Source: Ignavibacteriales bacterium (GTDB lineage Bacteria > Bacteroidota > Ignavibacteria > Ignavibacteriales > Melioribacteraceae). From it: a stretch of 64,000 nucleotides of DNA. Positions 36,421 through 57,709 of this stretch are shown piece by piece (within the stretch, counting starts at the first letter, position 1; each line of letters starts with the position of its first letter). The stretch is taken from positions 1 through 64,000 of the forward strand of contig JAIOYW010000019.1 in the NCBI GenBank assembly GCA_021740915.1, written 5' to 3'. A program made the translations under genes and the position numbers. The notes beneath the pieces were generated by a model, which worked only from the letters and a program-made list of their open reading frames with translations, did no database searches and had not been told where the DNA came from.

Positions 36421-36430
36421 TTTCCGCCTG

Positions 36431-38248
36431 TCATTTAATAAATAACATTTTTTTAATTTTGCTGGACTGACCATTTGTTAATTGATAAAAATAGACACCG
36501 GAAGGTAAAATTGATCCTGTGTCATTCCTGCCATCCCAGTAGTAACTGTGTTCACCCGCAGGCAAAGAAGTAAAATTTTCAGTTAGTAATTCGGAGCCTA
36601 AAGCATCGTAAATTCTTAGTGTAGTATCGCTCTGCCGGTCAAGTGAATAAATAATTTTTGTGCCTGCATTAAATGGATTTGGGTAATTCTGCTCAAGTCC
36701 AAATGAGGATGGGTTATCTTTATTTTCCCTGATGCCTAAACCTGTCGGTTCTCCATCAACAATAATACCGTTCAAAAATGAGTGATCAACTATGTCATCA
36801 AAATAAAAATCCAACAGTTCATCCTGAACTGTAATACTTTTTGTAATAGTATAAGCTGCGTTCGCGCCTGCCTGTGCAAATACATCAAGACTATCGGCAA
36901 ACAGTTCACCGTTTAATAAAATATTAAACTTCCTTGCACCGGCAACATTGAAGTAATTTTCAGCAAACAGCAGACTGACATCGTAATTTCCGTTTGGAAT
37001 CTTTACTCTGTAGGAAACAACTCCCCATCTCTCCTCCCTGAAAATAGCCGGCTCTGTTGTGCCTGAGATTATAAGATTAGATGGATATATCGTGGATGAA
37101 CCATTAATATAGCCATATGGTGCGGCATATGTCCATTCGAGGTCTTCAGAATAATCACCTGATGCGGAACCGCCGACATTAATTTTTAAGGGAAATGTAA
37201 TCTCGCTATTCTGTGCAATGGTTTTTGCGGAAAGAGTGATAGTATTAGCAGGAATTGCATCATCTTTGATGTTCTGAACAATAATATTATATGGAACTGA
37301 CTGCTGATAATTCTGCGTGCTTATTATGACTGACCTTCCTTCCGGCTGCAGCGCGGCGCCGGTTATCTGAACACCAGGAATAATATAGTTGGCAATCGAT
37401 TCTGCTGAGTTTTTATCAACCTCCTCATTAAAAACTACCTTAACAGTATTGTCATAGTTTTCACGGACATAAGAAACAGCAGGTTTAGTAAGATCAACAT
37501 TCCCGATATTAACATTATCTGTCAGACAAAGAATAAGCATTCCATCCGTTATTACTGCATTCTCCAGAATGAAATCAGAATTATTCCCCTGCCATGTGTG
37601 TGAAGCTTTTGCCCAGCGGTTCTGATCGAATGTATTAAAATCATCGTTCCAGGAAGGAGTAAAATTATTTCCGCTTCCGGTGCTCCCGCTTCCCGGAGTA
37701 TAAGTGGAATAGCTGACCCAGTCATAATAAGACCTTGCCGGAAGACCAGAAGGATCGAGTACCCCGACCCACCCCTCATATGCAGGCGGCCATATATTCA
37801 TCATTATTTTTTGAGCGCGGTTGATTTGCTGAATATGACTTCCGGTCTGTCGGCTGATTTCAATTCCATCAACAAACCAGGCTATATAATCAGGAGTCCA
37901 TTCAAATGCGTAAGTATGAAAATCAGCATAAGGATTAAAGTCCAGATATCTGTTATTTTCATGATTGATTTGATTGGGACTGATCACATTTACCTGAACA
38001 TGGTTTTCGTATCTGCCCAAAAATTCATAATCAATCTCATTCCATTCCGATAAATTTGAAATCTCAGCATAGGTAAAAAATGAAGATACGACACCTTCAC
38101 GATTCGCTGGTTTGAACCGGGCTTCGAACCTCCCATAGAGAAAAGAGGCTTTAGTCCTGTATTCTGCGCCTTTGTAATCTTTACCGTATATTTCAGTAAT
38201 GAAGCAAATAATCAGAAGGAAAATTATTGAAATGTATTTTTTTTGCAT
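36431..38248 (-). CDS. Circularly permuted GH16 lichenase with malectin-like domain and T9SS tail
   Basis: This 605-residue protein is predicted to be a 1,3-1,4-beta-glucanase. After the signal peptide, the GH16 domain starts in the middle of the usual fold (GAEYRTKASFLYGRFEARFK). It carries the catalytic motif NEIDYEFLG (Glu71, Asp73, Glu75) and runs to YYDWVSYSTYTPG. The strands that are N-terminal in Bacillus lichenases (FNTFDQNRWAKASHTW, then TDGMLILCLT) appear afterwards, at residues ~196-245. This order matches the natural circular permutation known from the Fibrobacter succinogenes lichenase. Then come a Big_5-type Ig-like domain (~255-345), a malectin-like sugar-binding domain (~350-510) and a T9SS tail (NYPNPFNAGTKIIYSL). 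It starts 5 bases after the PorV-like gene. Confidence 0.88.
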   Translation of the reverse strand: MQKKYISIIFLLIICFITEIYGKDYKGAEYRTKASFLYGRFEARFKPANREGVVSSFFTYAEISNLSEWNEIDYEFLGRYENHVQVNVISPNQINHENNRYLDFNPYADFHTYAFEWTPDYIAWFVDGIEISRQTGSHIQQINRAQKIMMNIWPPAYEGWVGVLDPSGLPARSYYDWVSYSTYTPGSGSTGSGNNFTPSWNDDFNTFDQNRWAKASHTWQGNNSDFILENAVITDGMLILCLTDNVNIGNVDLTKPAVSYVRENYDNTVKVVFNEEVDKNSAESIANYIIPGVQITGAALQPEGRSVIISTQNYQQSVPYNIIVQNIKDDAIPANTITLSAKTIAQNSEITFPLKINVGGSASGDYSEDLEWTYAAPYGYINGSSTIYPSNLIISGTTEPAIFREERWGVVSYRVKIPNGNYDVSLLFAENYFNVAGARKFNILLNGELFADSLDVFAQAGANAAYTITKSITVQDELLDFYFDDIVDHSFLNGIIVDGEPTGLGIRENKDNPSSFGLEQNYPNPFNAGTKIIYSLDRQSDTTLRIYDALGSELLTENFTSLPAGEHSYYWDGRNDTGSILPSGVYFYQLTNGQSSKIKKMLFIK

Positions 38249-42410: not shown

Positions 42411-45062
42411 TCAAATCCCAAAACTGAAACCAACCCTGATCTGTCTGGGGTAGGAATACATCTGAGGATTATTGACATACTCTTCAAGTGTATTGAAGCC
42501 GTTGATTTCACCTGCAAATTTGGTATTCAGATCGGAATTTGCCCTTCCGGTCGTTGAATAAACACCATATTCATTCATGATTCCGAATACATTGTAAACA
42601 AGAAGGAATGCATATATTTTAGTGCCATAGACATCGAAAAACTTATCTGCTTTCAGGTCGAAATTAAAAGTGGTTGGTTTGCGCCCGCCATTTTCAAACC
42701 TGACGCCGTTCGATATTCTAATATCTTCTGTAAACGGCATCCCTGTTCCATACTGCATAACAAAACCGACAGTCCAATCTCCGGGCACCCCGACTGAACC
42801 TGTAAAATTAATTGTTGATCGCTGATCCCAATCGAGCGGAACAACACGTTTTTCGGATTCAACCGGAGGATCGCTCTGATTATCATTGTAAACAGCATAA
42901 GGATCTGATGCATTGCCTTCTGCGAACTGATAAGTATAGTCTATCTTCGCGCTGAAATAATCAGTAAATCGTTTATCTAATGTAAGGATAAGCCCTTTCA
43001 CGTTACCGTAATCACGGTTTATAAAACGTGCATATTTGAATCCTTCATATGTACTCAGTATTTCCATCCCGAGCAGGTTCCTGATGTCGCTGTAGTAGGC
43101 TGTGACATCCAGGGATACATTAGGAAAAACAACCTGCTGGAGTCCTAATTCATATTTAATTGTTTTTTGAGCATCCAGATCAGGATTTCCGGTAATTGAT
43201 GAAAGTGATTGTCCCTGATTGATCAGATACTCAGCATTCCTGTAAAGGTTTTCGTAGCCGGGAATCTGGAAAAAATGTCCGTAAGAGAAGTAAATCGCTC
43301 CCTGGTCTGAAATCGGGAATGAAACCCCGATCCTCGGACTGACCTGATATTTTGCATTAACCTTTGTACTGAGTCCGGCACCCGGGAAATTCGGATTTGG
43401 ATTATTCCGGGATGGATTCCGCAGATCTGCAGGCATTTCAGTATTCGGATTGAAGTAATCGAAACGAAGTCCTGCATTAATTATCATGATATCATATTCC
43501 ATTTTATCCTGAATAAACCCCGCAAACTGAAATGGAAATCTTCTGTAACCCTGATTTCCCGGGGTTCCAAAATTCCTGTAGCCTAATTCAAATAAAGGTA
43601 TCTCATTGTCGTCAACCTGCCCTTCTTTTAGGTTGACTATCGACTTTCCATAGGAATACATATCGTGGTACTGACCTTCAACTCCGAGTTTAACTTTATG
43701 TTCTTTTGAAACCTGTGCCTCAATTGCCCATTGGACAATTGATGTTAATGTTGTACGGGAATACCTGTCCGCAGCATTTCCCCCCTGCCTGAAGGTATAT
43801 CCGGAAGTAGGTACGCCGGCATTCGGATCAACATAACGAGGATCGTATTCATCAGCATAAAGATAACCATAGTACTTATACATATTGGACGCCAGTTTCA
43901 ACGAAGAGAAAGTACTCTGTGAAGGATAGAACGCTACCTGAAATGAATGAATAAGATCGTTACTGAAATGAGTTAACGGAGCATCCGGAGTCCAGCTGGA
44001 ATAATGGTCGTAATATCTGTTTTTTGCATCAGTGAAGAATACTGCATAATTAAATTTCCAATCAGGAATTGAATATGTCAGTTTTGCATTCGATGAAAAG
44101 CGGCGTTGTGTATTCATTGCAACGGCAGCACCGTCCCCGGTCGGGAAAATCCAGAATCTATCATTTGTGTTATAAATTCTTTTTCCATAAAAGGGACCGT
44201 CGTCTTTAAGATATCTTCCGGTTGCGAAAAAGGTAAGTTCAGGAAGAATATACGTCGGGCCGCTAATTGCAAATGTAACATCCTGAAGACTGAAAGGTTT
44301 AATTTTATCAATATCACGGTAGATGTTGTCATTCGAATAATACGATCCAAGAAAATAAGAAACATTTGACTCGAAATTTCTGCCGCCCTCGCGAGTAACA
44401 ATATTAACTACACCAGAAAGAGCCTGCCCGTATTCTGCATTAAAAGTACCGCTGATAACCTCAAGTTCGCGCACAGAACTATTATCAATGTCTATTGCAT
44501 TCGAAGCGTTATATGCATCTGTTACAGGAACTCCGTCAACAAGGTAAGCCACCTCGTTTGAACGACCGCCGCGAAAATGTCCGTCAACAACACCTGCCTG
44601 AAGATTAATAACCTGATTGATATTATCAACTGGCAGCATCGCAATTTCGCTTGCTGAAACCGAAGCTTTCGTTGATGTGAGATCTTTTGTAATCAGAGGT
44701 TTTTCAGCCGTAACCACCACTTCCTGATCGAGTTGTATCGATTCAGGATAAAGACTGACATCAATATTTGTTGTCAGGTCAATCCTTACGATCACATCCT
44801 TGACCACAGTTTTTCTGTATCCCACGGCGCTTATTGTAACAACGTAAGTTCCGGGGGGTACGTTATTTATGTAATAATAACCTTCTATATCAGCGGCGGA
44901 TCCAAGGTATGTACCCTGAATCATTACGTTCGCCCCGATCACTGCTTCTCCGGTTTCCTGATCTTTTACATAACCTGATATTTTTCCTGTCTGACCTGCT
45001 TTTAGCACAGGAACCAATAAAAGAAACATGAGTAAGCCAATTATAAATCTATCTCTGGTCAT
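42411..45062 (-). CDS. TonB-dependent outer membrane receptor of the beta-glucan locus
   Basis: This 883-residue outer-membrane importer starts at the ATG at 45062; a TTG lies one codon upstream, but GAGGAT is better spaced for the ATG. It has a signal peptide, a carboxypeptidase-regulatory-like domain (about 25-105, GKISGYVKDQETGEAVIGAN), a plug (VVTAEKPLITKDLTSTKASV, then GGRSNEVAYLVDGVPV) and a barrel ending QIRVGFSFGI. No SusD gene is next to it; the neighbours are a large T9SS cargo and PorV. It probably imports oligosaccharides made by the surface glucanases. Confidence 0.9.
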   Translation of the reverse strand: MTRDRFIIGLLMFLLLVPVLKAGQTGKISGYVKDQETGEAVIGANVMIQGTYLGSAADIEGYYYINNVPPGTYVVTISAVGYRKTVVKDVIVRIDLTTNIDVSLYPESIQLDQEVVVTAEKPLITKDLTSTKASVSASEIAMLPVDNINQVINLQAGVVDGHFRGGRSNEVAYLVDGVPVTDAYNASNAIDIDNSSVRELEVISGTFNAEYGQALSGVVNIVTREGGRNFESNVSYFLGSYYSNDNIYRDIDKIKPFSLQDVTFAISGPTYILPELTFFATGRYLKDDGPFYGKRIYNTNDRFWIFPTGDGAAVAMNTQRRFSSNAKLTYSIPDWKFNYAVFFTDAKNRYYDHYSSWTPDAPLTHFSNDLIHSFQVAFYPSQSTFSSLKLASNMYKYYGYLYADEYDPRYVDPNAGVPTSGYTFRQGGNAADRYSRTTLTSIVQWAIEAQVSKEHKVKLGVEGQYHDMYSYGKSIVNLKEGQVDDNEIPLFELGYRNFGTPGNQGYRRFPFQFAGFIQDKMEYDIMIINAGLRFDYFNPNTEMPADLRNPSRNNPNPNFPGAGLSTKVNAKYQVSPRIGVSFPISDQGAIYFSYGHFFQIPGYENLYRNAEYLINQGQSLSSITGNPDLDAQKTIKYELGLQQVVFPNVSLDVTAYYSDIRNLLGMEILSTYEGFKYARFINRDYGNVKGLILTLDKRFTDYFSAKIDYTYQFAEGNASDPYAVYNDNQSDPPVESEKRVVPLDWDQRSTINFTGSVGVPGDWTVGFVMQYGTGMPFTEDIRISNGVRFENGGRKPTTFNFDLKADKFFDVYGTKIYAFLLVYNVFGIMNEYGVYSTTGRANSDLNTKFAGEINGFNTLEEYVNNPQMYSYPRQIRVGFSFGI

Positions 45063-45092
45063 CAACTTAATCCTCTATCAAAATGCTTATTT

Positions 45093-45157: not shown

Positions 45158-47725
45158 TTATTTAACTAACATCATCTTTTTGGTGGTGATATTACTGCCA
45201 GCTTCAATTGTGTAAAAATAAACGCCGCTTGAAAGCTTTGAAGCATCAAAATTAACCTGATAAACTCCGGCATTTTTAACTTCATTAACGAGCGTTGAAA
45301 CCTGTTGTCCGAGTATATTGAATATTTTCAGCGAAACAAACTGCTGATCAGGAATAGAGAAACGGATTGTTGTAGCAGGGTTGAATGGATTAGGATAATT
45401 CTGATTTAGTTCAAATGTAAGGTTTTCAAGATCACCTTCAACATCTGAAACCATCGAATTTCCAACCCAGGTATATAACCATCTGTTAACATCTCTCCAT
45501 GATAAATCCTCATTTGCAGCAGAATAGCAGAGGATTCCTTCACGTGAACCGGTAAGGTCAGCATCATTTACTGAAAAATCAATCGGGATCCTGTGACCGA
45601 GGTCCGGTACGTAAAGCTGATCATCAGGTGTTGCAACTGCAGCAATAGCGGAAAGTGCTATTTTTGCCTCAATTGTGTATCCGCCGATACCTTTATCAAA
45701 GAAAATGAAATTTTCGCCCGGGCGAACGATGATAATATCACCTGGGTTCCCGCTTCTTACACCTGTTGATGTGAATCTGTACTGGTAATCAGGTTCCCAG
45801 CCTCTCTGATATGAGGTATGGGAAGCTCCATGCCAGTTATACAATCCAAAGAACATATCGCAGCCATCTGTCAGATAGGAAGCGATTGTAGTATCAATGG
45901 AAAGAACATCATCGAATACGTCAAAAGCAACGTACATATAATCATTATCCATTGCCACATAAACATTCAGCGAAAGGTCTGCATCACCGTCAATTGTGGT
46001 ATTGGTAACAGGATGACCTGAACCATCGGATGGGAACATTCTGAAAGGCTGAATTCCTGTCCATTCTGTCAGGGAACCGTCTGCAACGAAAGCAGGAGCG
46101 CTCTGAGAGATAACAGCAACGCCTTTACCATTGTTTGTAACACTGGCAGGATTAGCAAGAGCAACTTCGCTTCTGTTTCCGGCAGCATCCTGGCATACAA
46201 CTGCATAATAATATGTAACAGCCTGATCTGTAAGCGGGGTGCGGAGCGTATGTTCAGCAAGCTGAGCATCTTCAACAATACCCATAGCAACAACTTCGAT
46301 TCCCGGTCCATTGATGTCTGTAATCGGGTTTAGGCTGTAATAAACATCATAAGTTTCAAGAGATTCGCCAGGCACGTCAGTCCATGTAATAAGATTAACA
46401 TACTGACCGGGAGCTGCAGCAACAAATCCCGGAGGCTGAGGTGCGACTACGTCAAAATATGGGCTGCCAGTCCAGATATTGTCAAGGTAAACTATCTTTC
46501 CGATACCTGCTTCACTTCCAACCAAAATCTTTAACTGTGATACACGTGTTGAATCAAATTCTCCGGGACGAGTTCCGCCGCCATCCCAGCCGCCTGCAAA
46601 GCGGTTGAAATTTCTAAGAGGTATCTGTACCAATTTCCAGCCGCCGTCAAATCCAACTTCAGCTTCCTGCAACAGATATTCTGCTTCGAATCCAACATCC
46701 GGTGTATCATCAATACCATCGCTGTTTGCATCTACGAACCCATCAATATCATCATCACCGAATGCAACTTTAATCTGCCCGAATCCTGCAGGAGCTTTGA
46801 TAGCAAATTTCACTGAGTCTGTTGTCCAGTGGAAACCCATGTTCTCAACTTCCGGAAGTGTCCAGACAAGTCCGTCCCAGACAGCCCAGGTGTTTGGAGG
46901 GGTTATCCATTTGATAGATTTGGTGCTTGTCGCGTAATCTTCTTCGTCGGTTATTTCATAACCGCCGCCGCCCCAGCCGCCATAAAGTTCAACTCCGCCG
47001 GGAATTGCAGCGCCGTTGAAAAATACGAGAGCTTTCTGGGTGATGCCTTTAAGTACCATATGGTCGAGGATAAATTCACCTGCTGTGTGATCGCCTTCAC
47101 CACCGCCATTAATTGATACTTCAAATGAGAAACCTTTGATCTTATCCTTGTCAAGTTCCTGGTTTCCGGTGATACCAGACCAGCCTGTCAGGTTGAAACC
47201 ATTGCCATCCCAATTGTAATTGTTTTCCAATGGGATTTTAATTTCATGCCAGCCCGGAACAGCATCGAGGATATAATGAAATGAGTAATAGTATTCAACG
47301 TCACCGACGTCATAAGTCTGGTTCCCGGTCGGAGAATCACTTACATCGTGCAGATTGATTCTTAAGTGAACCCTTCCCGGCAAATCGGCAGCAACTGTCG
47401 TATTATACCAGATTGAAAGAGTATCATAGAGAGACCAGTCGTAAACGCCGGTTGAGTCATTATACCAATGCTCAAGTTTTACGAAACCACCCCATGATTC
47501 TGTATTGTGAGCGCTATATGTTACCTTCATAGCGGCTGCGCCTTCCTGAACATTCGAAGTAATGAATTCTGTATTCATGTAGCTGTACAGAGAATCAGCA
47601 CCATCATTATTGAAAAACAGGAAGTAATTTGTATCCGCATCTGCCTGGTCAAAATTATTTATGACCATTTCCTGGGCAGAAACTGATACAACCAGAGAAA
47701 AAAGGAGAACTAGTAGTTTTTTCAT
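45158..47725 (-). CDS. T9SS-exported glycan-binding protein (CBM11-like and CBM9-like domains)
   Basis: The start is the ATG at 47725 (MKKLLVLLFSLVVSVSAQ), preceded by GGAGG, giving 855 residues. Two tandem beta-sandwich domains of the CBM11/CIA30 type occupy roughly 20-235 and 235-430 (LSIWYNTT, GWHEIKIPL; then KFAIKAP, GWKLVQIPL). A fibronectin type III domain (~435-530) and a CBM9-like domain (~540-760, DGSLTEWTGIQPF, MYVAFDVFDD) follow, then a T9SS tail (NYPNPFNPATTIRFSI). No catalytic motif is evident, so it is probably a surface protein that holds beta-glucan. It starts 30 bases after the symporter stop and shares its sigma-54 promoter. Confidence 0.8.
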   Translation of the reverse strand: MKKLLVLLFSLVVSVSAQEMVINNFDQADADTNYFLFFNNDGADSLYSYMNTEFITSNVQEGAAAMKVTYSAHNTESWGGFVKLEHWYNDSTGVYDWSLYDTLSIWYNTTVAADLPGRVHLRINLHDVSDSPTGNQTYDVGDVEYYYSFHYILDAVPGWHEIKIPLENNYNWDGNGFNLTGWSGITGNQELDKDKIKGFSFEVSINGGGEGDHTAGEFILDHMVLKGITQKALVFFNGAAIPGGVELYGGWGGGGYEITDEEDYATSTKSIKWITPPNTWAVWDGLVWTLPEVENMGFHWTTDSVKFAIKAPAGFGQIKVAFGDDDIDGFVDANSDGIDDTPDVGFEAEYLLQEAEVGFDGGWKLVQIPLRNFNRFAGGWDGGGTRPGEFDSTRVSQLKILVGSEAGIGKIVYLDNIWTGSPYFDVVAPQPPGFVAAAPGQYVNLITWTDVPGESLETYDVYYSLNPITDINGPGIEVVAMGIVEDAQLAEHTLRTPLTDQAVTYYYAVVCQDAAGNRSEVALANPASVTNNGKGVAVISQSAPAFVADGSLTEWTGIQPFRMFPSDGSGHPVTNTTIDGDADLSLNVYVAMDNDYMYVAFDVFDDVLSIDTTIASYLTDGCDMFFGLYNWHGASHTSYQRGWEPDYQYRFTSTGVRSGNPGDIIIVRPGENFIFFDKGIGGYTIEAKIALSAIAAVATPDDQLYVPDLGHRIPIDFSVNDADLTGSREGILCYSAANEDLSWRDVNRWLYTWVGNSMVSDVEGDLENLTFELNQNYPNPFNPATTIRFSIPDQQFVSLKIFNILGQQVSTLVNEVKNAGVYQVNFDASKLSSGVYFYTIEAGSNITTKKMMLVK

Positions 47726-47755
47726 TATTTGAACCTCCAAATAATTGGTTAAATG

Positions 47756-49297
47756 TTATTTAGTTTTTATATCCTGGTTACTGATTGCGTGATTAAAAAA
47801 ATTCGGCATCAGAGTAAACCCTGAAGCCGGAAAAAAAGAATATTTTTCTGCAAGCATTATCAGTAAGACATGCATCCCGGTCAGGATAAACAGAAGAGCC
47901 GAGAAATGCAGATAATTCATGGTGAAATAAGTATTTAAAAAACTTATATCCATAAATACAGTAAAGGAAGTGTAGTGGCTTATGATTCGCATCGAAGCCA
48001 GAATCATTCCGAAAATCAGGCTGCTGAACACAGCCCGTCCCGAAAGTTTTTTATTAAAAATTACAAAGACAAAAACTGCTGCTACCGGCGGGCTGATATA
48101 AGATTGAATCATCTGCAGATTAAGATATATATCAGATTTGATCATTTTCACCACCGGGATAAGTCCTATTGTTATAAGAACGATGCCAATAGCTGATAAA
48201 CGTGCAACTAATATTAAGGTTCTGTCCGAAGCCTGCGGGCGAAACGGTTTGTAAAGATCATTTGCGATCAGAGTGGATGAACTGTTAAAAACACTTGCAA
48301 GGGAGGACATGAGTGCGGCAAAAAGTCCTGATATTATCAATCCTCTAACACCATCGGGCAGATTAAGTTTAGCCACAAGGCTTCCATAAGCCTCATTGCC
48401 GCCAACTGACGGCAGAAGAAGCAGAGCAATTAATCCGGGAAACATAAAAAGAACTACAGGCAACAGTTTAAAGAGAGAAGCAAGTATGGTGCCTTTTTTA
48501 ATCTCATTGATATTTTTAGCGCCAAGAATTCTTTGCATTATATACTGGTCAGTAAGCCAGTACCAGATTGCAAGCACTGGAGCACCAAAAAGCAAACCAG
48601 TCCATGGTATCTCAGCATCAGACATTGGTTTGAAAAGATTCAATCGTTCAGCCGGTATCTGCTTTATAAGTTCAGAAATTCCGCCGATTTCATGAAGAGA
48701 GTATATTACAACAATTAATGATCCGCCTAAAAATACCGCTGTCTGAAAAATCTGAGTGCGGACAACACTTATAAGCCCTCCGGCAATAGTATAAAGTCCC
48801 GTGATAAGAACGAGGATGAGCGCTGAAGCAAAAAAATCCCAGCCTAATAGCTTATTAAGAAGGAAACCGGCAGTAAGAAGAGTTACCGCGGTTTTCGTAA
48901 AAAAATATGTAATTACAGACATCAAGGATAGAAATACTCTTACTCTGTTCCCAAACCGTTTGCCGAAAAACTCTGGTACGGTCAATACTTTTTCCCTGAA
49001 AAAAAGCGGACCGATAAACCAGCCAAGCAGCAGGAGAAAAATTATTGCAAGCCATTCGAAATGTCCGAGTACCAGTCCCTTGGAATATGCAGCACCAGCC
49101 AGTCCGACGATGTGTTCGCTGGAGATGTTTGTTGCGAAAAGTGAAACACCGATCATAAGCCAACTCAGATTTCTTCCTGCAAGAAAGTAATCTTCTGCTG
49201 TTTTTTCTTTTGATGAGCTTACCATTAATCCTATAAGCAATACAACAAAGAAATAAACGTAAATGATCGAAGTATCGAAAAAGCTTAAATCTGTCAT
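47756..49297 (-). CDS. Sodium/solute symporter (SSS family), second copy
   Basis: The start is placed at the ATG at 49297 (MTDLSFFDTSIIYVYFF) behind AGGGA, giving 513 residues. It has about 14 transmembrane helices and SGLT-like segments: DYFLAGRNLSWLMIGVSLFATNISSEH, GGLISVVRTQIFQ and FNSSSTLIANDLY. It is distantly related to the symporter at 32519-34156. It is the first gene behind the sigma-54 promoter at 49324-49340 and leads the operon toward the CBM protein. It probably imports glucose or a short oligosaccharide. Confidence 0.9.
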   Translation of the reverse strand: MTDLSFFDTSIIYVYFFVVLLIGLMVSSSKEKTAEDYFLAGRNLSWLMIGVSLFATNISSEHIVGLAGAAYSKGLVLGHFEWLAIIFLLLLGWFIGPLFFREKVLTVPEFFGKRFGNRVRVFLSLMSVITYFFTKTAVTLLTAGFLLNKLLGWDFFASALILVLITGLYTIAGGLISVVRTQIFQTAVFLGGSLIVVIYSLHEIGGISELIKQIPAERLNLFKPMSDAEIPWTGLLFGAPVLAIWYWLTDQYIMQRILGAKNINEIKKGTILASLFKLLPVVLFMFPGLIALLLLPSVGGNEAYGSLVAKLNLPDGVRGLIISGLFAALMSSLASVFNSSSTLIANDLYKPFRPQASDRTLILVARLSAIGIVLITIGLIPVVKMIKSDIYLNLQMIQSYISPPVAAVFVFVIFNKKLSGRAVFSSLIFGMILASMRIISHYTSFTVFMDISFLNTYFTMNYLHFSALLFILTGMHVLLIMLAEKYSFFPASGFTLMPNFFNHAISNQDIKTK

Positions 49298-49323
49298 ATC
49301 CCTGGCTAAATAATTATATGTAA

Positions 49324-49340
49324 TGCACAAATAGTGCCAA
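49324..49340 (-). promoter_or_regulatory. Sigma-54 promoter TTGGCAC-N5-GTGCA before the symporter operon
   Basis: Minus-strand TTGGCACTATTTGTGCA has the -24 GG and -12 GC separated by exactly 10 bases, as in the sigma-54 consensus TTGGCAC-N5-TTGC. The expected start of transcription is near 49313, giving a leader of about 16 bases before the ATG at 49297, just enough for its ribosome binding site. Confidence 0.8.
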
Positions 49341-49395
49341 AAAATTAGCAGTAAAAACAGGGATATTTTAATGGAATATCTGGATTGAAATTTTC

Positions 49396-49436
49396 AATAT
49401 TATCATTTTGATAATATTCGTTATTATTTTAATAAC
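49396..49436. promoter_or_regulatory. Two tandem inverted repeats upstream of the sigma-54 promoter, candidate enhancer sites
   Basis: The first repeat (49396-49418) has 9-base arms AATATTATC/GATAATATT around ATTTT. The second (49420-49436) has 6-base arms GTTATT/AATAAC around the same ATTTT. Their centres are 21 bases apart, two helical turns, and lie about 94 and 115 bases upstream of the predicted transcription start, the usual place for enhancer-binding protein sites. A third, looser repeat (GATATT-N7-AATATC) is at 49362-49380. Confidence 0.6.
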
Positions 49437-49444
49437 ATGAGATT

Positions 49445-51313
49445 CTATTTTGTGTTATTCCTGAGGATGAATTTTTCTATAGTTTCAAGAATTTTCCGGG
49501 CTCCCGGAAAATTGGGATTTAATGAGAGACAGGTCTTTATTTGATCTGCTGCTGAGCGTAAATCGCCTTTCGAAAAAGCTATCTTTGAAAGCATAAAATG
49601 ATCTTCAGGGGTGGCTGCGCCATGCCTGACTATCTCTTCAAGATATATGTTCGCAGATTTAAACTCGCCTTGTTTCAAACTTATTCTTGTGAGATTTCTC
49701 CGGTTAAATTCATCAGGTTCATTCCTGTAATTCCTTTGGAGAATATCTTTCGAAATTGTCAATTCACCCTTTTCGAGAAGTGCCGGAATATATTTCATTA
49801 TGGCGAACTTATCGAATGGTTTATCTTCAGAGAGGACATAGACTTCTCTCGCAGCGGAAGAGAGCAATCCGTGTTTCAGGAAGTGATCTGTAAGGTAAAG
49901 GTGTCCGGTTTCCCAGCCAATTTTTCCGGTTATTATATCGAAGGCTGTCGAATCTACAATATTTTTTCGTTGTAAAGACGAAGGATCAAGTCTTGCCGTT
50001 TTATCAGATGTGAATGGATATGAGTTAAGAATGAACTGCAGCCGGTACGAAGCGAATACAGAGTCAAGGGGAGAATATGAAGGATTCAGCTCTAAATAAT
50101 TAGCTGCCTGAGTTTCTTGTGGAGCGCTAAAACTGTCATCAGGCATATAACCAGAATTCTTCATGGCAGTCAGAAAGGCTTCAGCGAGGAGTTGATTTCC
50201 AGTGATATCAGGATGTACATGATCTGTAAAAAACTCTCCGTCACAAATTCCCGAACTCGATGATTTTTTGAATATTGCCTGGGTTGCAGCGACAGGGATA
50301 CTGAATTCTGAAGCCGTTTCTCTGATAATATTATTAAAGTCTGTCGGTGCTCTGAACCTTACTTCGTCAGAGTCTCCGGCTTTTTGCAGTAGTGAATCGG
50401 CTTCGAAAAAATTCCTTTCCCGGTACTTCTGCATTCCTGCTTTGTACAACTCTTTTGCACGACCTCCCCTTTTATCCATCGGAGGCAATTGCAGATTAGA
50501 GACAAGTTCTCCAATTATAACGGGGATTTTTTCAGCCTTGAGTTTCCTGATCATCCTCTCCAGATTCTCTCTGTAATATGCGGAAACATCATTGTAAGTA
50601 TCACTGTTCAATCCTATTTCTGCATCTGAGATCATTTCAGCCATAAGTGTGTTCTGCTGTTTACCTGCTGGAAAGGACGTGAATTCAGCAGCAGAGAAAA
50701 CAATATTTTCAATCAATTGATATAGCCTGAAATCTTTGAAATTGAGATGAAGCCTTATTAGCCATGGAGAAGAAGAAATTCTTGTTGTTGATCCGGCGCC
50801 AAAAACTCCATAGAATTCATTATGCCCGGAATAGATCAGCACCAGATCAGGATCGGCGGAGATTATTTCATCGAGAATATCAGTGATCACAAAAGTCCCG
50901 ATTGCTGAAATACCTGTATTAATTACTTCAATTCTTTTATCGGGAAACAATTCACCAAGTTTTCGTTTAATGTGCCTCGGAAAGGAAATATTCGGAGGAT
51001 ATGGAAAACCGGCTGTTGTACTTCCCCCAAGTACAAAAATTCTGAATGCACCTTCTCTTTTATCGGTATCGAAAGCATCGGGGATAACTGAGGGCAAATT
51101 TGATACCCCCTGAAAGTATTTCCTTGTGATTTCAGGGTTAAGAAATGTTTTACCGGGGAAATTATCTATTTTCATAAAAAGTGAGTAATCTTTTCCGTAT
51201 TCGAAAATACGAAGTCCCCCTTCGATCAATCCGATGAAAAGGAGAGGGAGAAGAACCATTATGAAGTAATAAATCTTCTTAGGGTATATTCGCCGGCTGC
51301 TTTTTGATTTCAT
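49445..51313 (-). CDS. Membrane-anchored SGNH hydrolase with TPR-like C-terminus
   Basis: This 622-residue protein has an N-terminal membrane helix (YYFIMVLLPLLFIGLIEGGL, ~15-34) and then an SGNH/GDSL esterase-like domain. Block I is FVLGGSTTAGFP (candidate nucleophile Ser), block III is YSGHNEFYG and block V is FFTDHVHPD (Asp and His). After about residue 400 there are helical TPR-like repeats (EEIVRHGAATPEDHFMLSKI). SGNH enzymes often remove acyl groups from glycans. Its ATG overlaps the GH5 stop (ATGA), so it is translated with GH5 and is probably part of polysaccharide processing. Confidence 0.8.
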   Translation of the reverse strand: MKSKSSRRIYPKKIYYFIMVLLPLLFIGLIEGGLRIFEYGKDYSLFMKIDNFPGKTFLNPEITRKYFQGVSNLPSVIPDAFDTDKREGAFRIFVLGGSTTAGFPYPPNISFPRHIKRKLGELFPDKRIEVINTGISAIGTFVITDILDEIISADPDLVLIYSGHNEFYGVFGAGSTTRISSSPWLIRLHLNFKDFRLYQLIENIVFSAAEFTSFPAGKQQNTLMAEMISDAEIGLNSDTYNDVSAYYRENLERMIRKLKAEKIPVIIGELVSNLQLPPMDKRGGRAKELYKAGMQKYRERNFFEADSLLQKAGDSDEVRFRAPTDFNNIIRETASEFSIPVAATQAIFKKSSSSGICDGEFFTDHVHPDITGNQLLAEAFLTAMKNSGYMPDDSFSAPQETQAANYLELNPSYSPLDSVFASYRLQFILNSYPFTSDKTARLDPSSLQRKNIVDSTAFDIITGKIGWETGHLYLTDHFLKHGLLSSAAREVYVLSEDKPFDKFAIMKYIPALLEKGELTISKDILQRNYRNEPDEFNRRNLTRISLKQGEFKSANIYLEEIVRHGAATPEDHFMLSKIAFSKGDLRSAADQIKTCLSLNPNFPGARKILETIEKFILRNNTK

Positions 51314-53289
51314 TTGAGAAGAACCAATTTCATTACTTCGGACTGCATACCATTTCTAATAAGCCTGTAATAATAAACTCCCGTAGGTAAATTACTTGCC
51401 GACCAGTTCACAGAATGATGTCCCGCCGGGAGCATACCGCCTTCAATTACATCAATCTTTTCACCTAATGAATCAAAAATTTCGACTTTTACGGCTGATC
51501 TATCCGGGAGGCTGAATGAAATATTTGTGTCGCAATTAAAGGGATTCGGAAAATTCTGGTATAATTCAGGAGTGATAGAGCCTGTCTTCTCACCCTCAAC
51601 ATCTGAAATGAGGTCAAACCTGAGTGAATTTACATTAAAACCGCCGAAATAATAACGGATATTTACCGTGTGCATACCTTTTGGTATTTCAGTGGTGGTG
51701 AGTATCATTGTTTGCCAGTTCTGCCAGCCGCCTGTGACCGGTATATCGATAAATCCCGTGGTAACAGGCAGATCATCAATGTAAAGCAGAATTTTGCCGC
51801 CTGAATTCTGCGCTGCGTAGCGGAGAGAAATCGCATACCCTCCTGAAGACTGGAATAAAATACTATAATCCGCCCATTCCCCCGTATCAATCCAGCCGAC
51901 ATTATATCCATTAGAAACCGGGTCAGAGCAAGACTCAATATCCACACCATCATTCCGGTAAATAAATCCGTTATTCCAGTCCTGCGCTCCCAATCCGCCT
52001 GTGTTTTGATAATCCTTATCGTTATAAGCTTTATTGATCGGGCCCATATCGTAGTCTGTGAGATAAATTATCCCGGGAGCCCGAAGTTCTTTGAAAGGCA
52101 CGGTAACATTTTCGCCCTCATTAAAAAGACCGTCAACAACATCGGGATGATAATTGCAGTTATCATGTTTCATTTTATCAACCTGACCGGTAAGATAAGA
52201 CCAGGCTTCACTTTGGGAGGGTTTTGGGCCGGAACCCCTCCAGTAATTAAGCAGAGTCTGATAGCCGTTCGTTTTCTCCGCTGATAAAGGAGCTGTGATA
52301 CCACCAAGTTTTTTCCACGTCCACCAGCTCCAGCCAATATTATTATCACTCATAAGCTTGACGCAATTCCTGAACCATTGATTTGAATTCTCGCCGGTTT
52401 CTCCCAGCCACAAAGGCGCCCCGGTATTCGTTCTGAGATCCAGCAAATATTGAATTGTTCCAATATCGTTATTATTCCAGTATTTATGGAAACTATAGAC
52501 GAGATTATCATCCCAGGGAGGTGTCAGTCCGCCGAAATCGGTCGCAAACCAGTTGCCCTCAATAAAAACAATATGATTTGTATCCTCCTGACGTATCGCA
52601 TCCGTTATCTGAATGTACAAATCCCTGAGAGCCAAATTACCGGGAAGACTCCATTTTGGTTCATTAATAAGATCATAACCTCCAATCCATTTTTCATTTT
52701 TATAACGCCTGGCAATCTCTTTCCAAAGCGCAATCGTTTTTTGTTTATTCCAGTCACTCTCCCAGAGTGAAGGTTTTGTAGGATCATAATCGCTGATCCC
52801 CTCATCGCTCTGACCTCCGGGTGCAGCATGAAGATCAAGGATAAGATAGATATTATATTCCTTGCACCATTGAAGAAGGCTGTCAATCCTTGCAAACCCC
52901 TTTTCAATATAGACATTGGGCTGATCCAGCGGAGTTAGTTTATTATAGTGCATGGCAAGTCTGATAGAGTTAAAACCTGCAGCAGCCAATGTTCTGACGT
53001 CTTTGCGTGTGAAAAAATTATCGTGGAAATAATCGTAGAACTGCTCAGTCAAAGCATCGCCGAGAACATCTTTTATTTTATTTTTGATTTGAAATTCGGC
53101 ATTTGCAAAGTCGGCGGTTTCAAACATATAGCCTTCCTGGAGCATCCATCCTCCAAGTCCGATTCCTTCAAGAATAAATTCCTGCTCACCATTCATAATA
53201 CGGTTACCCTGAACTTTAAGAAATTCCTGGCCCGTTACGGTGCCGATAAGGATAAAAAATGCAATTATGATCTGATGCTTGTAATTCAT
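51310..53289 (-). CDS. GH5 family beta-glucanase with CBM6 and T9SS tail
   Basis: This 659-residue protein is a retaining glycosidase of the GH5 type, close to exo-beta-1,3-glucanase/cellulase subfamilies (LEGIGLGGWMLQEGYMF). The catalytic acid/base is Glu210 in YDLINEPKW and the nucleophile is Glu297 in LWLGETGE. A CBM6-like domain (~415-565, including WIDTGEWADYSI and FNVNSLRFDLIS) precedes the T9SS tail (NFPNPFNCDTNISFSL to VMKLVLLK). GGGAG precedes the ATG. It is the first gene behind the sigma-54 promoter at 53321-53338 and directly follows the regulator gene. Confidence 0.88.
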   Translation of the reverse strand: MNYKHQIIIAFFILIGTVTGQEFLKVQGNRIMNGEQEFILEGIGLGGWMLQEGYMFETADFANAEFQIKNKIKDVLGDALTEQFYDYFHDNFFTRKDVRTLAAAGFNSIRLAMHYNKLTPLDQPNVYIEKGFARIDSLLQWCKEYNIYLILDLHAAPGGQSDEGISDYDPTKPSLWESDWNKQKTIALWKEIARRYKNEKWIGGYDLINEPKWSLPGNLALRDLYIQITDAIRQEDTNHIVFIEGNWFATDFGGLTPPWDDNLVYSFHKYWNNNDIGTIQYLLDLRTNTGAPLWLGETGENSNQWFRNCVKLMSDNNIGWSWWTWKKLGGITAPLSAEKTNGYQTLLNYWRGSGPKPSQSEAWSYLTGQVDKMKHDNCNYHPDVVDGLFNEGENVTVPFKELRAPGIIYLTDYDMGPINKAYNDKDYQNTGGLGAQDWNNGFIYRNDGVDIESCSDPVSNGYNVGWIDTGEWADYSILFQSSGGYAISLRYAAQNSGGKILLYIDDLPVTTGFIDIPVTGGWQNWQTMILTTTEIPKGMHTVNIRYYFGGFNVNSLRFDLISDVEGEKTGSITPELYQNFPNPFNCDTNISFSLPDRSAVKVEIFDSLGEKIDVIEGGMLPAGHHSVNWSASNLPTGVYYYRLIRNGMQSEVMKLVLLK

Positions 53290-53320
53290 GATAACTCCCG
53301 ATAATCTGATTTATTAGTAA

Positions 53321-53338
53321 CTGCAAATATCAGGCCAG
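53321..53338 (-). promoter_or_regulatory. Sigma-54 promoter TGGCCTG-N4-TTGCA before GH5
   Basis: Minus-strand CTGGCCTGATATTTGCAG has -24 GG and -12 GC separated by exactly 10 bases and a perfect TTGCA at -12. Predicted transcription starts near 53311, 22 bases before the GH5 ATG. It is immediately downstream of the sigma-54 regulator gene. Confidence 0.85.
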
Positions 53339-53345
53339 AATCGGG

Positions 53346-53364
53346 TTGGATTATTTGAATCCAA
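53346..53364. promoter_or_regulatory. Inverted repeat TTGGATTATTTGAATCCAA beside the GH5 promoter
   Basis: Perfect 7-base arms flank a 5-base centre ATTTG, nearly the same centre and inner arms as the repeats at 49396-49436. It overlaps the stop codon of the regulator gene and is centred about 44 bases upstream of the predicted start, closer than most enhancer sites. It could instead be a weak hairpin at the end of the regulator transcript. Confidence 0.5.
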
Positions 53365-54802
53365 GTTCTTTGAGAAGACGCACGAGATTTGGAGGGGCAA
53401 CGCCGAGTTTGAATGCTGCCTCAGTCTGAGAATTCGATCGCTCCATCACGTAATTGATGTAATCGGTTTTAAGTTTTTTTTCTACATCCTTCAATGGTGC
53501 AATTGCAGGCAAAGCATCAAAATTAAAAACATTTGTTTTTTTTATGCCGATAGAATAATTCATTAGAGCCAGTTCCACATCCTTTGAACTAATGCGGTCA
53601 TTAGTCCTCAATAAAATCCTTTGCACAACGTTTTTTAATTCTCTCACATTTCCGGGCCAGTCATATTCCAGGAATTTTTTCATTGAACCGGACTCGATCT
53701 CCGGAACGGGTCTGCCCATATCGAGGCTGTAAAATTCAACAAAATGTCTGATCAGAATTTCAATATCGTCGCGCCTTTCCCTCAAAGGCAAAATATGCAA
53801 TGGAATTACATTTAGTCTGAAAAACAAATCTTCCCGGAATTTTCCGGATTCTATTTCTGCGATAAGATTTTTATTTGTCGCTGCAATTATTCTGACGTTA
53901 ACCCTTAGTTTTTTAGTCCTTCCTATTTTTTCAATCTCACCTTCCTGGATAACTCTCAATAATTTTACCTGCGCAGCCATTGGAAGTTCAGCAATTTCAT
54001 CAAGGAAAATAGTTCCGCCATCAGCAACTTCAAACAAACCGGCTTTGCTGGAGCTTGCACCGGTGAATGATCCTTTTTCATACCCGAACAATTCGCTTTC
54101 AATAAGTTCTCCGGGAATACTCCCGCAATTGATCGCAACTAAATTCTCGTATTTCCTTTTTGATTTGTAATGAATATAATTTGCAACTAATTCCTTGCCG
54201 GTACCTGATGCCCCGGAAATTAATATACTCAGATCTGTCTGCGAGAATTTTTCGATCTCTTCTTTCAATATACGCATGGGTTCAGAAACCGAAATTATCT
54301 TTTTCTTCTCAAGAATTTCCTCGATGTTTTTTCTGAGTCTTTGCTTTGAATTGAGTGTAACAGTTTCCAGTTTTTTCTTTTCATAAGCATTAAAGATACT
54401 CATTAAAAAGTCAGTGGGCTGGTATATGTATTCTTCGATATCAACCGGATATTTGGTGCAGTACCAGTATGCGCCTGCCTCCATTAATCCCTTAGCAAAA
54501 TTAAAATCGCTTATATTGACGGTAAGTTTTGTCACAACAATTATCTGGATAACTGAATTAATCTCTTTTATTTTTTTGATTAATTCTTCACCTCTTATCG
54601 GACCGGCTATCTGGTAGTCCATAATTACAAGATCATAATCCTCCGGTGAATCGGATAAGGCATTTAATGCGTCAGCCCCGCTGGAAACAACTTTTCTTAT
54701 GTCAATGCTTCCGGAAAAAAGTTTTATTGTGTTTTTAATTCTTTTTACATCAAAATCTTCATCTTCTATTATCAGAAGACTGATTTTATTATCGCTTCTC
54801 AT
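53351..54802 (-). CDS. Sigma-54-dependent response regulator (NtrC family)
   Basis: This 483-residue activator has a receiver domain (1-130) with acidic pocket IEDED, phosphorylation site Asp62 in VIMDYQIAG and Lys117. The AAA+ domain (~170-400) has Walker A GASGTGKE (197-204), the sigma-54 contact loop GSFTGA (244-249, a variant of GAFTGA) and Walker B GGTIFLDEI (262-270). The C-terminal helix-turn-helix (NSQTEAAFKLGVAPPNLVRL) resembles the Fis type. It is encoded after the kinase gene (11-base gap). It should hydrolyse ATP to open sigma-54 promoters, two of which lie in the locus. Confidence 0.93.
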   Translation of the reverse strand: MRSDNKISLLIIEDEDFDVKRIKNTIKLFSGSIDIRKVVSSGADALNALSDSPEDYDLVIMDYQIAGPIRGEELIKKIKEINSVIQIIVVTKLTVNISDFNFAKGLMEAGAYWYCTKYPVDIEEYIYQPTDFLMSIFNAYEKKKLETVTLNSKQRLRKNIEEILEKKKIISVSEPMRILKEEIEKFSQTDLSILISGASGTGKELVANYIHYKSKRKYENLVAINCGSIPGELIESELFGYEKGSFTGASSSKAGLFEVADGGTIFLDEIAELPMAAQVKLLRVIQEGEIEKIGRTKKLRVNVRIIAATNKNLIAEIESGKFREDLFFRLNVIPLHILPLRERRDDIEILIRHFVEFYSLDMGRPVPEIESGSMKKFLEYDWPGNVRELKNVVQRILLRTNDRISSKDVELALMNYSIGIKKTNVFNFDALPAIAPLKDVEKKLKTDYINYVMERSNSQTEAAFKLGVAPPNLVRLLKELGFK

Positions 54803-54813
54803 CCTTTCAGTTC

Positions 54814-56292
54814 CTAAACTTTAATTTTAATCATAAATAATGCGCCGCCATCCTCTAAATTTGACGCGTCCAATTCCCATCCACACCGTTTTACTCCTAT
54901 CTCATAAGCTATATAACACCCATAACCGGCATTCTGGTTGACAGGATTTTTTGTCGTAATGCTCTCCGAGAAAAGTTTCTTTATTCCCGTTACGTCCGGT
55001 TGAAGCAGATTGATCGAAATTCCCTTACCATTATCTCTAACAAGAATTGTAATAATTTTTACAGCCGGATCGTATTTTGTTGTCACAGTGATCACCACAT
55101 TTGGTACATTCGCATGATCAATGCAATTCTGGATCAGAGGTTCCAGGATTTCCCAAACCACAAATTCATTTATATGAATCTTTGGAAGATCCGGATCATA
55201 TTCATGTTCGAACGAATAGATTTTTGTAGCTGTTGCCAGCCTTAAAAAGATATTATCAATAATAAATTTGATAACTTCATTTAAGTCTGTCTGGAACATC
55301 ATTCCCCTGATCGTATTGATCGGCGGATCAAACCACTTCATATCATAAATAACTCTCGATATAAAATTCGAATATTTTTTTATCCTGTAAATAACATCCT
55401 TCCTTTCATCACCTACAATAGAGTTCAGATCTTCTTTAATAAAACCCATTACTTTTTCAGCTTTGTGATGAGTGTGGTAGATCCTCTTTGTGAAAAGCAT
55501 TTCTTTTTCGCGGATGATCTGTTCCCGAAGGTGTTTTTGCTCCTCCTCGTTTAATCTTTTTTGTGCTTCATTTCTTTCTTTTAATGTGTAGGACGATATA
55601 TAATACATCGCAAGAAGCCCCATCAGAATCAATGATGAATAAATTATCGCGGTTTCCTCATAATTCGCAACAATTTCATTAGTAATATTCGCAAAATCCG
55701 GACGCTTTTTCATATAAAGAACGCCTTTGAATTCTCCATTTGGAACAAATGGAACGAACAAATGAAAAACATCTCTCCCGACAATTTTAGTATAGATTCT
55801 CTCCCATTTTTTAATCGGTATCGCTATCTCTTTGAAATAATTCAACAAAACACTGTCTTTTTCAAGAGAATTTCCAAATCTGTAGTCATTATTGGCAAGA
55901 TAATCAAATAATTCTCTTCCATCGTTCAAGGTATAAATTTCCCCTCCCTTTTCAACAATGAGGTAAATCTCTTCTACGCTTTTTTGCAAGGTTTGCTGGG
56001 AAAAAATGATATTAAAGGATTGTATAATGCGTGATTTTTCATAATCAGAAGTAATTCCTTTGAGATTAGTGTTCTCAACGATCAATTCAATAGATGTCGT
56101 AGTGAGATTCGCAATTTTTTCGGCAGAATCCTGCTGATACCATTTTTGTGTGTTCTGCAGGAAACCCTTCAACGATTCTTTTTGAATGAATGAAAGCAGT
56201 ATCTGAAAAGTCAGCATTATAAGGAAAAGAACTGTAACATGTCTGAATTCAAACCGATACTTACTGATACTATCTAAAATGGTTCGTTTCAT
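54814..56292 (-). CDS. Sensor histidine kinase with extracytoplasmic domain
   Basis: This 492-residue inner-membrane protein has transmembrane helices at about 19-37 and 214-234 enclosing a ~175-residue periplasmic domain. A coiled-coil-like linker follows (KERNEAQKRLNEEEQKHLRE). A histidine-rich helix (YHTHHKAEKVMGFI, near residue 270) is the likely dimerisation/phosphorylation helix but does not match the common H-box. The ATPase domain (~355-490) has the N box EPLIQNCIDH, G1 DNGKGI and G2 NAGYGCYIAYEIG. The gene lies between the binding-protein gene (7 bases upstream) and the regulator gene (11 bases downstream), so it is the kinase of this system. Confidence 0.85.
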   Translation of the reverse strand: MKRTILDSISKYRFEFRHVTVLFLIMLTFQILLSFIQKESLKGFLQNTQKWYQQDSAEKIANLTTTSIELIVENTNLKGITSDYEKSRIIQSFNIIFSQQTLQKSVEEIYLIVEKGGEIYTLNDGRELFDYLANNDYRFGNSLEKDSVLLNYFKEIAIPIKKWERIYTKIVGRDVFHLFVPFVPNGEFKGVLYMKKRPDFANITNEIVANYEETAIIYSSLILMGLLAMYYISSYTLKERNEAQKRLNEEEQKHLREQIIREKEMLFTKRIYHTHHKAEKVMGFIKEDLNSIVGDERKDVIYRIKKYSNFISRVIYDMKWFDPPINTIRGMMFQTDLNEVIKFIIDNIFLRLATATKIYSFEHEYDPDLPKIHINEFVVWEILEPLIQNCIDHANVPNVVITVTTKYDPAVKIITILVRDNGKGISINLLQPDVTGIKKLFSESITTKNPVNQNAGYGCYIAYEIGVKRCGWELDASNLEDGGALFMIKIKV

Positions 56293-56299
56293 AATATTA

Positions 56300-57652
56300 T
56301 CACTTGATCAGAACTTCATTTGAGTTTATCATTCTGTCTGCATCTTCAAGAGCTTTGTTGATTGATATTTTATTACTGAGCGCCTGGTTCACGTAATACG
56401 TAATAATTTCAGAGATACGGGTGTAATCTGCCCTCATGGGTCTGTGAATTCCGGAAGAAAACAGATCTGAATAAAATTGTAAATCGCCCTTATTTGCGAT
56501 CTTGTATTCTGTATTGTATAAATTGCTGAGAACCGGAAGTGATCCGTTTTCCTCATAAAATGTTTTCTGAGCCTCTTCACTCAGGAGAAATTTCACAAAT
56601 TGAAGTGCCCAGTCTTTATTCTCCGAAAATTTCGAGATCATAAGATTCCAGCCTCCAACGACCGATGCCTGTCCTTTCCCCTTAAAATGCGGCAGAGGAA
56701 TTTTTTCAACCTGCAAATCAGGTTTAATTTCCCTGAAAAGCCTGTTATAATCAGCGAGGAAAGTAGGCCATCCCCTTACAAAAACTCCATTGTTCTTTAT
56801 AAAATAATAATACGTTGTAAATTCTTTAAAATTCACAACGTCCGGAGTGCTGATTTTGTACTTGTAAATGAGGTCATGCAATAATTGTAATGCTATTCGA
56901 GGTTCTTTGGAATTGAGATTCAACTTATCTCCGGAAAAGCTTTCCGGGTTCAGATTTAAGACAGTTTCAAGATAACTGCAAATAAGTCCTTCATAATCTT
57001 CTGCAAAAAACGAATACAATTTTCCTGAAAATTGATCATCAAGACGGGATATTTTAATAAGATCGTCCCAGGTAATACCCGCACGGAGTTTTTCAATCGG
57101 GTATCCTAATTCACTCAATCGTTTTACATGTTCCGTATTCACAAACATGGTGCTGAAATCAATTCCGAGAGGGACGGCATAGAGCGAGTCATTATATATA
57201 CACGAACTTACCGCGAGCGGCATCATTTTTGACTTTTCTGCAGCGGTAAAATGGTTTGTAAGATTTATTGCCCATTTTGCAAACCGATAACTCCAGATAA
57301 CATCAATTGCAAAAACATCAATTTTCTCACTCCGGCTTCGAAGCGAGCGGGCAAGTAATTCTTTTCTTTCGTTTGTGCTGAATTTTGTGAATGGAAGATT
57401 GATTCCGACTACTTCTATTCTCCCTCTGTTACGCTCATTAAATTTGTCTATAAGTTTCTGATGAACAGAGGTAATATTATCAACATAGTATAATCGCCGT
57501 GTTTTTTTTTCTTCCGGTATCGAATTGAATGAGGTGATCCAGAAATAAATAATAAAAACTGTCACCAGAAACATAAGAACCAAAAAAAATAAATATGTCT
57601 TAGAGAAAAATCTGAAGATTTTCTCATTTGCAAATGGTAAATTTAATTTCAT
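56300..57652 (-). CDS. Membrane-anchored extracellular solute-binding protein (SBP_bac_1 type)
   Basis: The ATG at 57652 is preferred over the TTG four codons upstream; 450 residues. A single N-terminal helix (TYLFFLVLMFLVTVFIIYFW) without lipobox or clear cleavage site should anchor the protein in the inner membrane. The rest matches family 1 sugar-type binding proteins: HQKLIDKFNERNRGRIEV, IDVFAIDVIWS, YAVPLGIDFSTMFVNTE, ITWDDLIKI, ASVVGGWNLMISKFSENKDWALQFVKFL and EEAQKTFYEENGSLPV. No ABC permease or ATPase gene is near. It is followed 7 bases later by the histidine kinase gene, so it probably presents a sugar to the kinase and does not feed a transporter. Confidence 0.87.
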   Translation of the reverse strand: MKLNLPFANEKIFRFFSKTYLFFLVLMFLVTVFIIYFWITSFNSIPEEKKTRRLYYVDNITSVHQKLIDKFNERNRGRIEVVGINLPFTKFSTNERKELLARSLRSRSEKIDVFAIDVIWSYRFAKWAINLTNHFTAAEKSKMMPLAVSSCIYNDSLYAVPLGIDFSTMFVNTEHVKRLSELGYPIEKLRAGITWDDLIKISRLDDQFSGKLYSFFAEDYEGLICSYLETVLNLNPESFSGDKLNLNSKEPRIALQLLHDLIYKYKISTPDVVNFKEFTTYYYFIKNNGVFVRGWPTFLADYNRLFREIKPDLQVEKIPLPHFKGKGQASVVGGWNLMISKFSENKDWALQFVKFLLSEEAQKTFYEENGSLPVLSNLYNTEYKIANKGDLQFYSDLFSSGIHRPMRADYTRISEIITYYVNQALSNKISINKALEDADRMINSNEVLIK

Positions 57653-57709
57653 CCGCTGGAACAATATTTGTAATAAGTTTTAATTAAAATACGAAAAAGA
57701 AAAAATTAT

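Follow-up and report, generated by a model that had tools for sequence, protein, structure and literature searches.

Genes of the locus

The 64,000-nucleotide stretch of DNA analysed here (hereafter the window) carries on its minus strand a set of regulatory genes and a glycan-utilization cluster, transcribed in the order solute-binding protein (SBP), histidine kinase (HK), response regulator, a -24/-12 element, GH5 enzyme, GDSL-type hydrolase, a tandem palindrome, a second -24/-12 element, sodium:solute symporter, CBM9 protein, TonB-dependent receptor, GH16 enzyme and GH3 enzyme. The first gene (56300..57664) encodes a sugar-type SBP, the proposed sensor, with an N-terminal hydrophobic stretch and matches to SBP_bac_8/SBP_bac_1; its closest solved relatives are trehalose/maltose-binding proteins. 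The second (54814..56292) encodes a membrane HK whose predicted model structurally matches known kinases in its cytoplasmic half, and which is predicted to possess an extracytoplasmic domain of its own. Its only Pfam match is HATPase_c, and the phosphoacceptor region, which contains an invariant RIYHxHHK box, has no Pfam phosphoacceptor match. The third gene (53351..54802) encodes an NtrC-type response regulator with a Pfam receiver and a sigma-54 interaction domain, in which the characteristic loop reads GSFTGA (GAFTGA or GSFTGA in relatives), as well as a Fis-type C-terminus recognized by eye. This protein scores far under the curated cut-offs of the equivalog models for NtrC, AtoC, ZraR, LuxO and NorR. 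The sigma-54 interpretation of the locus had been made dependent on the presence of rpoN, and this gene is found in the 4.35-Mb genome to which the window belongs, together with about 15 strong sigma-54 activator genes.

Downstream of the regulator, the GH5 enzyme (51310..53289, with its ATG at 53289) carries a CBM6 and a T9SS-type C-terminal sorting domain, and is followed by the GDSL-type hydrolase (49445..51313). The sodium:solute symporter of the SSF type (47756..49297) is the first gene of the target operon, and its ATG at 49297 is assigned from the promoter position and an SD-like AGGGA; the ORF lister's choice, a TTG at 49330, falls on the promoter and probably does not begin the gene. 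The operon continues with a secreted protein containing CBM9 (45158..47740), a TonB-dependent receptor (42411..45065), a GH16 enzyme with a malectin domain (36431..38248) and a GH3 enzyme (34165..36474), with two more ORFs, outer-membrane-related by appearance, between the receptor and the GH16 gene. Because GH16, GH3, GH5 and CBM6 are all present, the substrate is probably beta-glucan; laminarin as the inducer is a guess. Elsewhere in the window, the tandem ORFs 6830-9655 and 10037-12862 have an identical length of 941 aa and probably represent a recent duplication.

Sigma-54 elements and the tandem palindrome

The preliminary description had proposed two -24/-12 elements on the minus strand, and both are upheld by the present analysis: TTGGCACTATTTGTGCA, with its core TGGCACTATTTGTGCA at 49324..49339 before the symporter operon, and CTGGCCTGATATTTGCAG, with its core TGGCCTGATATTTGCA at 53322..53337 before GH5, keep GG and GC 10 bases apart. 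The short leaders predicted from them also stand, each with a ribosome binding site: about 16 nt for the symporter from a start near 49313 (SD-like AGGGA), and 22 nt for GH5 from a start near 53311 (SD-like GGGAG). The window likewise contains no further intergenic match to GG-N10-GC, as had been stated. The consensus as such is nevertheless a poor guide, since TGGCACGNNNNTTGCW with up to three mismatches occurs 58 times in the window against 63.8 expected, which is chance level, and the bare consensus is thus uninformative. The narrower TGGC-N8-TGCA occurs five times against 1.66 expected, the three matches other than the two elements (1850, 10190 and 11474) lying inside ORFs.

The first scoring matrix was built from the published consensus; for the later one, base preferences were derived from the data under a mild position prior. 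When only relatives contribute to the matrix and the window is left out, the symporter site scores 18.7 and the GH5 site 15.9, which places them first and third in the 64 kb on both strands; sites of the relatives have a median of 15.3 with the same matrix. Simulated windows contain 0.00 matches per window at the score of the symporter site and 0.40 at that of the GH5 site. The latter figure and the chance-level loose consensus would allow both elements to be fortuitous, with ordinary promoters serving the operons, but the position of the elements, the enhancer, the conservation in relatives and the held-out test described below make us regard such a coincidence as very improbable. A third promoter candidate, the relaxed match TGGAACAATATTTGTA at 57657 (plus strand), is not kept in relatives and looks like chance. 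A large plus-strand ORF (57710-59479), PPIase-like by eye, is the divergent neighbour of the SBP gene, as it is in several relatives; upstream of it, no conserved sigma-54 element was found.

Just upstream of the symporter promoter lies a predicted enhancer (UAS) consisting of two 15-bp palindromes on the minus strand. The distal box 1 (49421..49435) is the palindrome TTATTAAAATAATAA, an exact match to TTATYANNNTRATAA, and the proximal box 2 (49400..49414) is TTATCAAAATGATAA, which lies 21 bp from box 1; 60 bp separate its edge from the -24 element. This pair reaches a score of 37.8, the next best in the window being -4.7, and it is the sole exact tandem pair in the entire 4.35-Mb genome; a search of the same genome for additional pairs (7-base gap, up to three mismatches) gave one weak match, equal to the control. 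Single TTATYANNNTRATAA palindromes are not enriched, with 17 in this genome against 21 in the backwards control and similar figures in relatives. It is the tandem pair alone that is meaningful, not the single palindrome.

Putative enhancer pairs and promoter geometry in relatives

In relatives, the palindrome TTATYANNNTRATAA recurs in the spacers behind the regulator gene. The copy-to-copy distance, taken over 99 non-redundant regions, has its peak at 21-23 bp, where 71 pairs are counted and the reversed sequences have 0, palindrome discovery and counting having drawn partly on the same loci. Exact pairs are present in 43 of the 97 genomes searched (1 in the backwards control). The regulator subfamily, whose members are mostly 46-65% identical over their full length (about 40% for other NtrC-type regulators, from which they stand clearly separate), occurs in 62 of these genomes, that of the window included, and exact pairs are found in 43 of the 62 genomes with the subfamily compared with none of the 35 without it (p = 1.1e-12, the genomes being related and not independent); 19 of the 62 have the subfamily and no exact pair. 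Of the 75 pairs listed, 42 have a regulator gene no more than 8 kb away, a zone amounting to about 0.5% of the sequence. The other 33, more than 8 kb from any regulator gene, would fit tandem palindromes that are sites of another DNA-binding protein or have some different role, for example as terminators. Their absence from all 35 genomes without the regulator subfamily speaks against another protein, their AT-only composition would make them poor terminators, and the fixed distance to sigma-54 elements is as expected of an activator site, so that we consider these readings improbable and continue to treat the pairs as putative enhancers. As such, the pair and the promoter geometry are directly searchable, which makes the targets of the regulator predictable in uncultured genomes.

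Several enhancer pairs in relatives (L116, L122, L126, L135, L142, L113 and L115) are mostly not near a regulator gene; judged by eye, the same pairs stand before more symporters of this kind and before what is probably a sugar permease; in L113, the pair precedes the SBP gene itself. Together, these pairs suggest multi-operon regulons and autoregulation in relatives.

From the enhancer pairs, sigma-54 scores are higher outward than inward (p = 2e-10). When GGYAY alone serves as the anchor and the position prior is dropped, the distances from the edge of the enhancer still cluster sharply at 60-64 and 70-74 bp, with a flat inward control, which shows that the prior does not create these peaks. 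The two peaks are about one helical turn apart, and the element of the relatives can be written as GGYAY-N7-TTG, with about 60 or 72 bp separating it from the pair. For enhancers that were held out of the matrix, a promoter was recovered outward in 10 of 16 cases and inward in 0 of 16. In the anchored sites of the relatives, the TG of the -12 element emerges unselected (T in 62 and G in 61 of 71), and the base after TTG is C in only 18 of the 71 enhancer-anchored sites. Across the 97 genomes, TGGCAY-N5-TTGC occurs at 484 sites against 223 in the control, and the form in which TTG is followed by A, G or T at 1915 against 1429. Sites with a base other than C thus make up the larger part of the TGGCAY-N5-TTGN excess, and the looseness at -12 may be lineage-wide, although these counts are suggestive only. 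The sigma-54 of this lineage may tolerate bases other than C at -12, and such an apparent tolerance bears on how sigma-54 recognizes its promoters.

These observations alter the grounds on which a regulatory link to the adjacent activator had originally been argued. The argument from the strict GG-N10-GC occurring solely in this locus is weak, since bare matches do not exceed chance level and the regulon does not conserve the C of GC. The link itself is well supported for the symporter operon, where it draws on the enhancer at a conserved distance, the co-occurrence with the regulator and the promoters of orthologous operons; the comparison of these sequences strongly supports a sigma-54 promoter controlled by the neighbouring activator. 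For GH5, the same link is not established, the enhancer being absent.

The GH5 element stands 32 nt from the ATG, the usual distance. No box above the shuffled background is found in 53338-54200, a region which includes regulator gene sequence, and the 62-bp spacer between the regulator and GH5 has none, so that the element is without a detectable enhancer. In relatives in which GH5 follows the regulator, 12 of 13 have a similar element and at least one box upstream, mostly at about 60 bp (125 bp in L066); the symporter promoters of relatives have their enhancer mostly about 60 or 72 bp away, and that of the window is at 60. Most simply, this lineage would have lost the GH5 enhancer through a deletion. 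If GH5 is still regulated, this might happen from the 49400 site at a distance of 3.9 kb; read-through is another candidate. It is nearly an even question whether, for the GH5 part only, the element has become a relic or lies outside this regulator, the GH5-GDSL unit being expressed by read-through from the SBP-HK-regulator genes, by another activator, or weakly. The missing box, set against its presence in 12 of 13 relatives, points in that direction, but the element is intact and at its usual place, and the 49400 pair is within the range of sigma-54 activators, which are able to act from kilobases away.

A putative three-component system and its counterparts

The SBP-HK-regulator triad is found in all 40 loci fetched, and many of these loci continue with genes for GH5, the symporter, the CBM9 protein or a TonB receptor. 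A scan of the kinase family gave 216 relatives. The labels of the 80 retained are for the most part Ignavibacteria, Melioribacteraceae or Bacteroidetes, and some are Calditrichota, KSB1 and Kryptoniota. Taken with the promoters and the enhancer, this arrangement makes it highly probable that the window encodes a three-component carbohydrate-response system, SBP-HK-NtrC-type regulator, together with its target cluster, which it would control through the pairing of a sigma-54 promoter and an enhancer.

The following course of events is read from gene content and DNA sequence. Outside the inner membrane, the SBP (56300-57664) would sense a breakdown product of the glycan and hand the signal to the membrane HK (54814-56292), which would phosphorylate the NtrC-type regulator (53351-54802). 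The regulator, as two dimers on one face of the DNA, would bind the tandem TTATYANNNTRATAA pair about 22 bp apart and contact sigma-54 RNA polymerase at the -24/-12 promoter 60-75 bp downstream. ATP-driven promoter opening through the GSFTGA loop would then switch on the symporter/TonB receptor/GH16/GH3 operon, and the GH5-GDSL unit of this genome would have kept a matching sigma-54 element but no longer its own enhancer.

With canonical NtrC-type systems, the proposed system shares the receiver, the AAA+ sigma-54 domain, the upstream enhancer, the -24/-12 promoter and the short distance between them; it differs in the enhancer sequence of its own regulon (tandem TTATYANNNTRATAA, 22 bp) and in the C of -12 not being conserved. 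In the LuxP-LuxQ-LuxU-LuxO system of Vibrio, a periplasmic binding protein acts through a kinase on a sigma-54 response regulator. A comparable path is proposed for the window, whereas the Vibrio system has a quorum-sensing ligand, a LuxU phosphorelay and different targets; against the LuxO model, the regulator of the window scores 268.8 with a cut-off of 800 and has no sequence-level membership. Glycan loci of Bacteroidetes are, in the textbook cases, controlled by SusR, hybrid two-component systems or ECF sigma factors. Like the window, these loci have glycan-utilization clusters that include TonB-dependent receptors and are controlled locally, but they are not known to use sigma-54 with an upstream enhancer; both are predicted for the window, in addition to a separate SBP. 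Among the experimentally studied analogues found, CuaDSR of Ruminiclostridium cellulolyticum comes closest; it comprises an SBP, kinase and regulator for cellobiose/cellulose, and its sugar-binding protein feeds the kinase (PMC10384115). The likeness consists in a gene for a separate sugar-binding protein beside the kinase and regulator genes, as well as in the control of glycan use; the difference is that CuaR is YesN/AraC-type (PMC10384115), whereas the window has an NtrC-type regulator that would work through sigma-54 and an enhancer.

The predicted extracytoplasmic domain of the HK would permit it to sense the signal itself, the SBP being a stray transport component. Such an arrangement seems unlikely, given that the SBP gene adjoins those of the HK and regulator in every one of the fetched loci and that the CuaDSR kinase is indeed fed by a sugar-binding protein; the SBP is accordingly retained here as the putative sensor.

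No description of this regulator class was found in the open-licence literature searched, which included the genome paper of Melioribacter roseus (PMC3534657). The parts are of known kinds; what looks new is the way they are combined, along with the enhancer code and how widely it occurs. We lean, by a modest measure, toward an undescribed SBP-HK-NtrC class being a major controller of glycan clusters across Ignavibacteria and their neighbours, by means of a pair of TTATYANNNTRATAA boxes set two helical turns from each other, with 60 or 72 bp between the pair and a promoter of the form GGYAY-N7-TTG without need for C at -12. This would amount to a separate sigma-54/enhancer logic for glycan use in Ignavibacteria and relatives, many of which are represented by metagenomes only.

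The genome of the window also contains a second, more diverged SBP-HK-regulator triad (L097, C24:66934-86379), situated before a TonB-receptor-type gene. Its regulator is 47% identical, and the spacer holds two imperfect boxes and a TGGTACAACTTTTGAA element.
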